This document shows positions 27,211 to 31,953 of a stretch of 40,691 bases of DNA, piece by piece; positions within the stretch are counted from its first letter, which is position 1; the number at the start of each line of letters is the position of its first letter. The DNA is taken from NCBI GenBank assembly GCA_001788395.1, contig MGBT01000002.1, forward strand, positions 4,192 through 44,882, in the 5' to 3' direction. A model generated the notes under the pieces. It worked only from the letters and a program-made list of their open reading frames with translations, was not told where the DNA came from and made no database searches. A program made the translations under genes and the position numbers. Origin of the DNA: Candidatus Rokubacteria bacterium GWA2_70_23. GTDB taxonomy: Bacteria; Methylomirabilota; Methylomirabilia; Rokubacteriales; CSP1-6.

Positions 27211-28542
27211 TCAGCGGGCGGGCGGTCTGGCGATCACCGTCCGCAGCGTCTGAAGGTAGCGCCGGGCCACGCGCTGGACGTCCTCGGCCGTGACCTGGCG
27301 CACCTGCGCCACGTGGCGGTCGAGGAACTCGTAGCCGACACCGGCAGCCTCGAACGAGGCCAGGTACCAGGCCTGCCGTGCGTTCGTCCGCCGGTCCATG
27401 GCGAGGTTGCCGAGCAGGTACGCCTTGGCGACCCTCAGATCCTCGGCCGACACCGGCTCCTGCTGGATCCGCGTGAGCTCGTGCCGGAGGGCAGCCTCGG
27501 ACTTCTCCAGGTTCTCGGGTGCCGTGCCGATCTGCGCGAGGATGTGGCCCCGATCGATCCGCGTGGGGTACTGCACGGCCGTGGTGTAGGCGAGGCCCTG
27601 CTTGTCCCGGAGCTCGGAGAAGAAACGTCCCGCCATGCCGCCGCCCAGCACGGCGCTCAGCACCTTCACGGCCGGGTAGTCGGGATCGGTGAGCGCCGGT
27701 GCCGGGCCTCCCGCCAGGATCTGTGCCTGCGCGCCCGGCACCTCGATCACGTCGCGGGCGCTTGACGGCGGGGGGAGCGGCGCCGGGGCCAGGGGCGGCG
27801 CGGGGCCGGCCGGTACGGCGCCGAAGAGCCGCCCAGCCTGGGCGCCCACCTCCGCCGCCTTCACTCGCCCGCTCACGGCCAGCACCATCTGCCCCGGCAC
27901 GTAGTGGCGGCGGTACTGGGCCAGGAGGGCCTCGCGGTCGAGCCGCTCGACGCTCTCCTTGAGCCCCAGCGGGTTCCAGGCGTAGCCGTTCTCGCCGAAC
28001 AGGTGGGCGCCGAGCGTGTCGAGGGCGACATCGTACGGTTTGTCGCCGCGGTTCCGGATCTGGCGCACGAGGAAGTCGCGCACGGCCTGGACGGTGCCCT
28101 CGGGGAGGGAGGGGCGGAGCGCCACGTCGGCCACCAGCTCGAGCATCTCCACCCAGTGGCGGGAGAGCGCCGTGGCCGCGATCTCGGAGAAGTCCACGTC
28201 GCCGTAGGCGTCGATGCTGCCTCCCATGCGGTCGGCGGCCTCCACGATCTGGCTGCCGTTGAGCCTCGCCGTGGCCCGCACCACCATGAGCTGGAGGAGA
28301 TTGGAGATCCCGGCGTTCGCCCGGGTCTCCCAGCGGGTGCCCATGCGCACCCCGAGAGAGATGGCGACCACGGGGGCCGTCGGGTTCTCGCGCACGAGCA
28401 CGGTCATCCCGTTCGCGAGCCGGATGCGTGACACCGCCGGCGACGGGACCTGCGCCCAGGCCTGGACCGCCCCCAGCAGCGCCAAGAGCATGACGAGGCC
28501 GACGGCGATACGGCGGCGCGCGCGGGGACGCCGCGGCGTCAT
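27211..28542 (-). CDS. M16 peptidase family protein, inactive-type subunit
   Basis: 443 aa, signal peptide at about 12-31 (IAVGLVMLLALLGAVQAWAQ). The fold is M16: RIRLANGMTVLVRENPTAPV at the start, a PGQMVLAVSGRVKAAEVGAQ segment and GGGMAGRFFSELRDKQGLAY near the end, where the substrate-binding R/Y region is kept. The zinc motif HxxEH is absent: the corresponding place reads NAGISNLLQLM. So it is the non-catalytic partner. Its ATG shares one base with the stop of the active M16 gene upstream (TGATG), so the two are made together, as in mitochondrial processing peptidase-like dimers. Confidence 0.93.
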   Translation of the reverse strand: MTPRRPRARRRIAVGLVMLLALLGAVQAWAQVPSPAVSRIRLANGMTVLVRENPTAPVVAISLGVRMGTRWETRANAGISNLLQLMVVRATARLNGSQIVEAADRMGGSIDAYGDVDFSEIAATALSRHWVEMLELVADVALRPSLPEGTVQAVRDFLVRQIRNRGDKPYDVALDTLGAHLFGENGYAWNPLGLKESVERLDREALLAQYRRHYVPGQMVLAVSGRVKAAEVGAQAGRLFGAVPAGPAPPLAPAPLPPPSSARDVIEVPGAQAQILAGGPAPALTDPDYPAVKVLSAVLGGGMAGRFFSELRDKQGLAYTTAVQYPTRIDRGHILAQIGTAPENLEKSEAALRHELTRIQQEPVSAEDLRVAKAYLLGNLAMDRRTNARQAWYLASFEAAGVGYEFLDRHVAQVRQVTAEDVQRVARRYLQTLRTVIARPPAR

Positions 28543-29906
28543 CACTGCCCCGCCTTTTTCGGCACGAACGCGAGCCGCGCGTAATCGGTGCGAGAGAGGA
28601 CGCGGCGGGCCGCGTCCCGGATCTGCTCCCGCGTGACCTGCCGGAGCCGCTCCACGTAGCGGAGCTCCTCCTCGAGGGCCCAGGTGGTCTCGGCGATGCC
28701 GTAGGCATTGGCGAGCCCCTCGGAGGTCTCGATGGTGAAGGCGTGCTCGGACTCGGCCTTGGTCACCGCCAGCTGGCGCTCCTCCTCGGTGGGCCCGCTC
28801 TCCTGCATCCTGGCGATCTCTTCCAGGACAATCTGCTCGACCCGCTCGAGGTCCTTCGCCTCCAGCTCCGCCCTGAGGCTCAGGATGCCGCCGCCCATGA
28901 GCGCGGCGTAGCTCATGGTGATGCTCGACACGAGGCGCTCCTCGTCGCGGAGCCGCTGGGCCAGCCGCGAGCTCTCCGCCCCGGCCATGATCGAGGCCAG
29001 GAGATCTACCGCGAAGCCATCGGTGTCGTCCGCGCGCGGCGCGAGCCACCCCAGCGCCAGGTGAGCCTGCTGCTCGGCCCGCTCGACCTCGCGCCGCAAC
29101 CCGCCCGCGAGCGGTCGGGGCGCGGGGACGGGCGCGGGGCGGTAACCCGACGCGGGCACCCGGCCGAAGATCTTCGCCACGGACGCGCGCACGGCGCGTG
29201 GATCCACGGGCCCCACCACCACGACGGACATGTTCTCGGGGGTGTAGTACCGCCGGTTATACGCCTTCAGTCGCTCGCGGGTGGCGGCCGTCATGGTCTC
29301 GCGCGTGCCGAGGACGGGGCGGCCGTAGGGATGGCCGTCGAACACGAGCCCGTAGAGCTGGCGGACGATCGCGGTGCGTGGATTGTCGGCCTCGATCCGG
29401 GCCTCCTCGAAGATGACCTCGCGCTCGCGCGGGATCTCCTCGGCGTCGAAGGTGGAGCGGAACGCCATGTCGGCGAGGAGATCGATGGCCGTGTCCATGG
29501 CCTCGGACGGGACGACGATGTAGAAGGTCGTGTAATCGAAGGAGGTCACGGCGTTGGAGCGGCCGCCGACCCCTTCGACCGCGCGGTCGATGTGGCCAGG
29601 CCCCCACTTGTCCGTGCCCTTGAAGAGCATGTGCTCCTGGAAGTGGGAGAAGCCCAGCTCGTCGAGCTTCTCGTAGCGCACGCCCACGCCCACCCACAGG
29701 TACACGGCCACGATGTCCGCGGCGCGGTGGTCCTGGATGATGAGACGGAGCCCGTTGGGGAGCACCTCACGCGTCGGAGACGGGAGGTCGTCCTCGCTGC
29801 CGGCGGAACGGGGCATCACCCTCACGGCAGGCGCCGCCACGCTGCAGCCGGCGACGAGCGCAGCGAGCCAGACCGCCGCGAGGGCCGCGCGCCAGGACCG
29901 GGTCAT
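28542..29906 (-). CDS. M16 zinc metallopeptidase, catalytic subunit (lipoprotein)
   Basis: 454 aa. Lipobox AALVAGC with Cys21, so it should be membrane-anchored outside the cytoplasm. Zinc motif HFQEH at 88-92 in GFSHFQEHMLFKGT, with the distal Glu expected in VIFEEARIEAD. The repeated half-domains typical of M16 follow (YYTPENMSVVVVGPVD, MAGAESSRLAQRLRDEERLV). ATG at 29906. Upstream of and coupled to the inactive partner. Substrate unknown; such pairs degrade short peptides or process secreted proteins. Confidence 0.95.
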   Translation of the reverse strand: MTRSWRAALAAVWLAALVAGCSVAAPAVRVMPRSAGSEDDLPSPTREVLPNGLRLIIQDHRAADIVAVYLWVGVGVRYEKLDELGFSHFQEHMLFKGTDKWGPGHIDRAVEGVGGRSNAVTSFDYTTFYIVVPSEAMDTAIDLLADMAFRSTFDAEEIPREREVIFEEARIEADNPRTAIVRQLYGLVFDGHPYGRPVLGTRETMTAATRERLKAYNRRYYTPENMSVVVVGPVDPRAVRASVAKIFGRVPASGYRPAPVPAPRPLAGGLRREVERAEQQAHLALGWLAPRADDTDGFAVDLLASIMAGAESSRLAQRLRDEERLVSSITMSYAALMGGGILSLRAELEAKDLERVEQIVLEEIARMQESGPTEEERQLAVTKAESEHAFTIETSEGLANAYGIAETTWALEEELRYVERLRQVTREQIRDAARRVLSRTDYARLAFVPKKAGQ

Positions 29907-29941: not shown

Positions 29942-30970
29942 TCAGACCGGGATGGCGGCGCCCGAAACGCCGCCGGCCTCGTCGGAGGCGAGGTACCCGA
30001 CGACGCCGGCGACGGTGTCCGTCGAGACCCAGCCGGAGCGATCCGCCCCGGGCATGGCGGCCCGGTTGGCGGGAGTGTCCATGGTGCCCGGCAACACGGC
30101 GTTGACCGTGATACCGCGCCCCTTCACCTCCTGGGCGAGCGCCTGGGTCAGCGTGATGACGCCGGCCTTGGCCACCGTGTAGGCGATGAAGCCTCCTGCG
30201 GGCGGAACGACCGCGCGCGAGGCGATGTTGACGATCCGCCCGTGGCCCGCCGCGAGCATGGTCGGGAGCACCGCGCGGCAGCCCACCACCACCGAGATGA
30301 GGTTGAGCCGCAGCATGCGCTCCCACTCGGCGAGGGGGGTTGAGGCGAGGTCGCCCCCGGCGAAGCCTCCCACCGCATTGACCAGGACGTCCACCCGGTG
30401 GTGACGCTCGAGGACGCCGGCGACGAAGGCTGCGACCGCCGCCTCGTCGCTAGCGTCGGCCGGGGCCACGTGCAGGCGGGCGCGCTCCGCGTCCCCGAGG
30501 CGGCCGCGCAGCGCCTCGAGCCCGTCGCTCCCGCGGTGCGGGACGCAGACGGTGGCTCCAGCCGCGAGGAGCCGCCTGCAGATCGACTGTCCGAGCGCCC
30601 CCGCGCCCCCCGTCACCACCGCCACGCGGCCGGCGAAGGACACGAACCCCGGTGCGCCGACATCCCCGTGCGCCGCGGGCTCGGCGGCGAGGGCGTCTAG
30701 CCGGGCCGCGAGCGCGAAGTCGGTTGCCGTGATCCCCCCGGCCTCGTGGGTGAACAGGTCCACCGTCACCCGGTTGTAGGCGTTGGACCAGTCGGGGTGA
30801 TGACCCAGGGCCTCGGCCTCGCGGGCCGCCGCCGTCATGAAGGCGAAGGCGTCGACGAAGTCACGGAACGTGAAGACACGGTGGAGCCCTCGGTCGAGGG
30901 CGGTCCACCCGGGGAGCGTCGCGAGCCGCCCGACGATCTCGCTCTGGCTGAGCCGCTCGGGTCGAACCAC
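29942..30970 (-). CDS. fusion: pterin-4a-carbinolamine dehydratase + dihydropteridine reductase-like SDR
   Basis: 342 aa in one frame. Residues 1-97 are a complete PCD/DCoH domain (LPGWTALDRGLHRVFTFRDF; catalytic HHPDW at 57-61; YNRVTVDLFTHEAGGIT). Residues 112-342 are a short-chain dehydrogenase (VVTGGAGALG, cofactor site; VNAVGGFAGG; Tyr264-x3-Lys268 in AYTVAK). The end AVLPGTMDTPANRAAMPGAD followed by SGW closely follows the AVLP.T.DTP.NR..MP.AD pattern of quinonoid dihydropteridine reductase. The two domains catalyse consecutive steps: loss of water from 4a-hydroxytetrahydropterin, then NAD(P)H reduction of the quinonoid product. GTG start at 30970. No aromatic amino-acid hydroxylase is in the window. 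Confidence 0.92.
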   Translation of the reverse strand: MVRPERLSQSEIVGRLATLPGWTALDRGLHRVFTFRDFVDAFAFMTAAAREAEALGHHPDWSNAYNRVTVDLFTHEAGGITATDFALAARLDALAAEPAAHGDVGAPGFVSFAGRVAVVTGGAGALGQSICRRLLAAGATVCVPHRGSDGLEALRGRLGDAERARLHVAPADASDEAAVAAFVAGVLERHHRVDVLVNAVGGFAGGDLASTPLAEWERMLRLNLISVVVGCRAVLPTMLAAGHGRIVNIASRAVVPPAGGFIAYTVAKAGVITLTQALAQEVKGRGITVNAVLPGTMDTPANRAAMPGADRSGWVSTDTVAGVVGYLASDEAGGVSGAAIPV

Positions 30971-30981
30971 GGCGGGGGTCC

Positions 30982-31892
30982 TCAGGATGGGGCAGGCGCG
31001 GCCATCAGGCCTGCCCGCTGGATGTCTTCGTAGCGGACGTGGCTCACGTCGAACGACTCCAGGTTCTCGCTGAGCTTCTTGAAGGTCTGGTCGAAGCTCG
31101 GCAGCGTCTTGCGCTGGCGGGTGAGGGGCGTGGTGCGCGCGAGCACGAAGTTCTTCACGTAGGGGTGGCTGATGCCGCGCTTCTTGAGCCGGGCCACGAC
31201 CCTGGCGAGGGCCTCGTCCGCCTCCGCGACGCGCGCGGCGCGCTCCTCCCGCTCCGCGAGCGTCTTCGGGAACGTCCCCTTGAGGAACTTGTCCACGCGG
31301 CGGAGGATCGGGGCGAAGGCGCCGCCGGAGAAACGCTTGTTCCCCTCGTAGAGGAGCCCCAGCGTGACGAAGTGGGCGGCCTCGAAATGGAAGGCGTAGT
31401 CCTCCTCGCCGCTCGCGGGCTCCGCGGACACGAGCCCCCGGTACATCCCCGGATCACCTCCAGCGACTTCTCCTTGAGGTTGTGCGCCTTCTCCGTGTTG
31501 AGCGAGAGGATCTGGAAGGCCACCTCCGCCTCGGGCACGAGGATGGCGGGAATCATTTTCGCCTTGAGCTTCTCCAGCGCTGCCCGGCGGTGGTTGCCGT
31601 TGGGCGTCCAGTACACGCCGGGGCTCGGGGACATGGCGACGATGGGGTCCACGAAACGGTCGATCTTCCTGACGACCTCCTGGAGCCGCTTGACGTGGGT
31701 GGGGGAGAGGTCGCGCTGATAGGGGGTGGGCTCGACCTTTGCCATGGGGAGCAGGCAGAAGATCTGCCAGTGCTCGCCCACCGGGTCGCGATAGAGGGCC
31801 AGCGCCCGGCCGCCGTCCTTCTCCACCTGCTCGGCGAGCGCCTGCGCCTGCTTCGCGGGTTCCTGCTCGGGATGCACCACCCACCGCGGCAT
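30982..31892 (-). pseudogene. ParB-like nuclease-domain protein, frameshifted
   Basis: Two adjoining frames together make one protein of about 300 aa. The first (from ATG 31892, GAGG box six bases upstream; another ATG at 31904) has the ParB-type domain: TPYQRDLSPTHVKRLQEVV, then VYWTPNGNHRRAALEKLKAK with the GNHR motif. The frame breaks near 31447-31450, a run of four C; adding one base would give EVIRGMYRGLV and restore the frame, which continues VSAEPASGEEDYAFHFEAAH to the stop at 30982. Either a recent one-base loss or a sequencing error in a homopolymer. It is not a plasmid partition gene by context. Lies between the LIV system 2 and the pterin fusion, all in one direction. Confidence 0.82.
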
Positions 31893-31953
31893 GACGGGCC
31901 TCATTATGCCTCAGGCGCCGGCCGCCAGCAGCCGGAGATGGACCGCCCGCGTG

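Follow-up and report, generated by a model that had tools for sequence, protein, structure and literature searches.

A single open frame on the minus strand of the window (the whole stretch of DNA analysed, 40,691 nucleotides from Candidatus Rokubacteria bacterium GWA2_70_23) joins an N-terminal pterin-4a-carbinolamine dehydratase (PCD) domain to a short-chain dehydrogenase/reductase (SDR) domain that is akin to quinonoid dihydropteridine reductase (QDPR, DHPR). Rokubacteria are soil and groundwater bacteria, and DHPR is the pterin-recycling enzyme of animals. We consider the chances evenly balanced that the fusion protein would be a bifunctional enzyme, regenerating tetrahydropterin in two steps for a client other than an aromatic amino acid hydroxylase.

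The fusion gene and its dehydratase domain

The fusion gene, its parts and its neighbours are listed below (positions are those of the window; aa, amino acids).

29942 to 30970, minus strand: PCD-SDR fusion gene, single open frame, 342 aa
30689 to 30955, minus strand: PCD domain (aa 6-94), PF01329 at 105.7 bits, catalytic motif at aa 53-84
30638 to 30688, minus strand: linker (aa 95-111), sequence not conserved, with a disordered segment (aa 100-105)
29945 to 30637, minus strand: QDPR-like SDR domain (aa 112-342), PF00106/PF13561, SDR motifs
30982 to 31904, minus strand: conserved upstream gene, about 300 aa, weakly ParB/Srx (SbnI)-like
28542 to 29906, minus strand: M16 peptidase, next downstream; also downstream in G001, G002, L005 and L022
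27211 to 28548, minus strand: second M16 peptidase

The earlier note had claimed that a PCD is joined to an SDR in one open reading frame. This is borne out: the frame runs exactly from 29942 to 30970 and Pfam finds both domains in it. The gene starts with GTG at 30970, preceded a few bases 5' by AGGA, and stops with TGA; the fusion of species G001 has ATG in place of this GTG. Two more species of the same genus (G001 and G002) carry the fused frame uninterrupted by any stop, at 87-88% identity. The linkers of the three fusions are equal in length and diverged in sequence. Pairwise dN/dS is 0.26-0.34 for the PCD and 0.25-0.31 for the SDR, and by these ratios both domains are under purifying selection. 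The intact frame in three species, taken with this selection, excludes a fusion by chance, frameshift or artefact. A sequencing or assembly error that joined two genes, towards which a frameshift in the adjoining upstream gene of the same assembly could point, is hardly credible when the in-frame fusion recurs in the assemblies of three species with diverged linkers of equal length.

Most Rokubacteria loci with the SDR have the upstream gene next to it. Its frameshift, of one base, lies between '...SLEVIR' and 'MYR...'; in nearly all relatives, G002 included, the gene is in a single frame. It contains the motif 'TPNGNHRR', matches no Pfam family, and its predicted structure is of low confidence (pLDDT 60.7).

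Structure prediction agrees with the two-domain reading of the fusion: AlphaFold2, with the loci gathered in this analysis as input alignment, gave two well-formed and confident domains (mean pLDDT 93.5), and within the linker pLDDT falls below 50 only at aa 100-105.

Pterin_4a (PF01329) matches aa 6-94 at 105.7 bits (cut-off 26). The motifs HHPDW and DTPANRAAMPGAD are present as the earlier note had stated, at aa 57 and aa 298, respectively. The PCD pattern of the literature is [EDKH]-x3-H-[HN]-[PCS]-x5,6-[YWF]-x9-[HW]-x8,15-D. The fused PCD has it complete as E-x3-HHP-x5-Y-x9-H-x8-D (aa 53-84), and it was also found in 29/29 related PCDs scanned. By sequence, the N-terminal domain is thus a canonical PCD, alike in full-length domain and catalytic pattern to PhhB (COG2154, PF01329), and differs from it in its covalent link to an SDR and in occurring where the genome has no phenylalanine hydroxylase. 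The PCD part might instead be a protein-binding or dimerisation module that stabilises the SDR tetramer and is not an enzyme. PCDs are generally known to moonlight, as DCoH does in animals, and the PCD and SDR families are both commonly tetrameric, which makes a fusion sterically reasonable. We regard such a module as very improbable, since the whole catalytic pattern is kept in fused and linked PCDs and the GWA2_70_23 genome has no PCD other than the fused one.

Kinship of the reductase domain

The C-terminal part matches adh_short (PF00106) at 164 bits (cut-off 26.6; aa 115-304) and adh_short_C2 (PF13561) at 133.7 bits. Besides the C-terminal motif at aa 298, it has the SDR motifs TGGAGALG (aa 120), NAVGGFAGG (aa 198), NIAS (aa 248) and YTVAK (aa 264). 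The earlier note had called this reductase a DHPR. Kinship with QDPR is supported by profile, tree and rat query; identity with QDPR in the strict sense is not, on account of a serine where QDPR has alanine.

The six best PDB matches of its C-terminal 53 residues are all QDPR (8b5u, 8b5t, 9dtw, 1hdr, 1dhr and 1ooe; E 2e-6 to 1e-3). With rat QDPR as query (sequence checked against 1dhr), 24 genomes were searched, and in 12/12 genomes of relatives with any match the best one was a member of the SDR family to which the fused domain belongs. A QDPR profile scored 157-176 against three parts of this family, whereas its scores against other SDRs, in four groups, were 52-73. From the side of the family, ordinary SDR profiles scored 280-322 and QDPR 147-157. 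In a tree of 55 rows, QDPR and the family stand together against all other SDRs (support 99/97.9), and the grouping is kept when the motif columns are left out (67/95.6). The earlier note had set its reading against a clustering of the SDR with 3-oxoacyl-ACP reductases; no such clustering is seen, and a clade of QDPR with FabG is rejected (p-AU 0.0009). QDPR, a long branch in this tree, may lie inside the family or beside it (p 0.076).

The family has members in Rokubacteria, Acidobacteria, Nitrospira, Dormibacteria and Anaeromyxobacter, and nearly all of them carry the block DTPANR..MP.AD..W; the other SDRs of the same genomes are without it. Some of the family loci were retrieved by a pattern inside this block, and those from the genome search were not. 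The tyrosine, lysine and asparagine of QDPR, which we take from general knowledge of its structure to be active-site residues, are conserved in the family (the asparagine of DTPxN corresponds to rat Asn186). The classical SDR serine at -13 from the tyrosine, which QDPR lacks, is present in the GWA2_70_23 protein and most relatives; L017, L043, L044 and L052 have alanine there, as in QDPR.

Compared with known QDPRs (rat 1dhr, C. elegans 1ooe, Dictyostelium 3orf, 8b5t/8b5u), the fusion SDR shares the GG[WF]AGG loop, Tyr-x3-Lys and the DTPxNR..MP.AD..W block with the active-site asparagine, and its family is their nearest SDR kin by profile and tree. It differs in having about 25-27% identity, the classical serine for alanine and phenylalanine for Trp86, and in being bacterial, fused to a PCD in one genus and encoded in a genome without hydroxylase. 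Because most members keep the serine and ordinary SDRs are nearer by profile than the fast-evolving QDPRs, the domain is called QDPR-like and not QDPR; on this comparison, it belongs to an unnamed bacterial family that is probably a sister group of QDPR rather than proven QDPR.

FabG and other classical SDRs have the same fold and, in most members of the family, the same catalytic tetrad, and they supply the nearest automatic models. The fusion SDR nevertheless stays below the cut-offs of these models (best NCBIfam model FabG, 205.8 bits against 288; further FabG models, 121.1 against 332 and 120 against 297.75), lies on the other side of the tree, and has the QDPR-type C-terminal block where FabG has its substrate loop. 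The best PDB matches in Foldseek are ordinary SDRs; all matches shown are other SDRs, and QDPR is not separated by this comparison. FolM, PTR1 and TmpR are likewise SDR reductases of pterins. The cofactor motif TGX3RXG of the FolM/PTR1 pteridine reductases (PMC1971073) is, however, absent from the fusion SDR, which has TGGAGALG instead, and against the TmpR model, which asks for 325 bits, the SDR from sister locus L022 scored 107.9.

Origin and distribution of the fusion

The earlier note had raised the case of relatives with the two domains as separate genes. This holds for the sister genera, with two overlapping genes, and does not hold inside the fusion genus. In genera g3 and g19 the stop of the PCD gene and the start of the SDR gene overlap as GTGA (L004, L005/L103, L022/L104, L106 and L107); in genus g30 a short gap separates them (L102, L108); genus g15 has a PCD without SDR (L105); and of the other Rokubacteria most have the SDR immediately after the conserved upstream gene, with no intervening PCD. 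A full-length match to the fusion was found in 3/95 genomes of the phylum, all of one genus. A scan of species genomes by short patterns, which distant fusions can escape, gave L021 as the only fused locus, apparently the same locus as L003 of G001. Plasmid records yielded no further fusion; none of them matches 80% of the query at a single locus. In the G001 protein (L003/L021), the near-invariant MP.AD of the SDR C-terminus reads MLRADRLAW, possibly a sign of relaxed constraint.

Since PCD and SDR are separate and often overlapping neighbours in the sister genera, the fusion, judged from these gene arrangements, arose recently, in one Rokubacteria genus, from a coupled PCD-SDR gene pair. In the simplest history, the ancestral order would have been upstream gene and SDR; a PCD would have been inserted between them; PCD and SDR would then have come to overlap, with translational coupling; and loss of the stop/start overlap of this pair in one genus would have given the fusion. 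The linker retains an in-frame GTG (30643-30641) at the position where the SDR of the sister genera starts; it is a possible internal start, from which the SDR may still be produced on its own. The open-licence literature searched yielded no report of a PCD fused to an SDR or to DHPR, which is weak evidence of novelty; the fusion is apparently undescribed.

Most relatives have the SDR without an adjoining PCD. Within the phylum the presence of PCD does not follow that of SDR, PCD being about as common in members without SDR, so co-occurrence lends no support to a functional link and the argument was dropped. Among distant genomes with the SDR, 19/20 have a PCD and only 6/20 a hydroxylase. Conserved SDR neighbours in Acidobacteria show no pterin context. 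Shinella has a PCD gene next after an SDR of quite another type; PCD-SDR pairing can thus be incidental.

These arrangements bear on the possibility that the SDR is a FabG-like or other carbonyl or alcohol reductase with an unrelated substrate, which a PCD came to adjoin by chance and to which it was joined by neutral read-through of overlapping genes. The scarcity of PCD neighbours and the Shinella pair fit such a history, as do the FabG model, the Foldseek matches and the retained serine. It would nonetheless leave as coincidence that the PCD settled, of all SDRs, beside a relative of QDPR; the FabG cut-off is not reached, pterin reductases are indicated as kin by motifs, profile and tree, and selection acts on both domains. 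We judge an ordinary reductase to be rather unlikely.

Pterin context and proposed function

Aromatic amino acid hydroxylase (PF00351) was found neither in the GWA2_70_23 genome nor in a single one of the 57 genomes of the family, which thus lacks the classical source of 4a-hydroxypterin. A phenylalanine, tyrosine or tryptophan hydroxylase is thereby ruled out as client; the phenylalanine hydroxylase that the earlier note had considered as a partner is not there, and a role of the fusion with this enzyme is unsupported. PCD itself occurs in 33/35 good family genomes.

The stand-alone PCDs of relatives (L134-L145) form a different subgroup, about 40% identical, and lie in a conserved neighbourhood with molybdopterin enzymes of the xanthine-dehydrogenase and sulfite-oxidase types. 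The same block also encodes a lytic transglycosylase and a protein with NHL repeats. For PCDs, a role in relation to Moco has been reported (Naponelli et al. 2008, cited in PMC3223725).

On the folate side, FolA (PF00186) was found in 0/35 good family genomes and ThyX in 31/35, which keeps a folate-linked role for the fusion possible. The only match to canonical dihydrofolate reductase is in G001 (6% contamination). In many Rokubacteria genomes (for example G000:C113:3045-4307), ThyX consists of two tandem Thy1 domains in one frame of about 530-600 codons, which suggests a tandem-fused ThyX in Rokubacteria. The distribution of FolA and ThyX would suit an SDR that is a 7,8-dihydropterin or dihydrofolate reductase, in function like FolM or PTR1, and helps to replace FolA, with the PCD keeping the reduced pterin pool clean. 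Against it stand the missing TGX3RXG motif, the lack of the SDR in several FolA-less relatives (G008, G010 and G014, for example) and the existence, as is generally known, of FolA-less ThyX organisms without such an SDR, and we consider it improbable.

In the preferred reading, that of two-step tetrahydropterin regeneration, the N-terminal PCD would dehydrate 4a-hydroxy-tetrahydropterin to quinonoid dihydropterin, and the tethered SDR would use NAD(P)H to reduce this, or another dihydropterin, to tetrahydropterin. The client would more likely be a pterin of the molybdopterin or folate type, or else an unknown oxygenase that uses pterin. Channelling between the two sites can be conjectured.

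As a Rosetta-stone hint, a PCD fused or coupled to a QDPR relative would suggest that PCDs of organisms without hydroxylase take part in pterin regeneration, and it gives a concrete guess at the substrate of a bacterial SDR family that spans several phyla and whose nearest models are FabG. It is a tentative proposal, which we hold to be somewhat doubtful, that a bacterial one-polypeptide PCD-QDPR regenerates tetrahydropterin in organisms without aromatic amino acid hydroxylase. If true, it would mean that pterins are oxidised by a reaction so far unrecognised, or that 4a-adducts of molybdopterin or folate are repaired, and a widespread SDR family that is now named FabG would be assigned a function with pterins.
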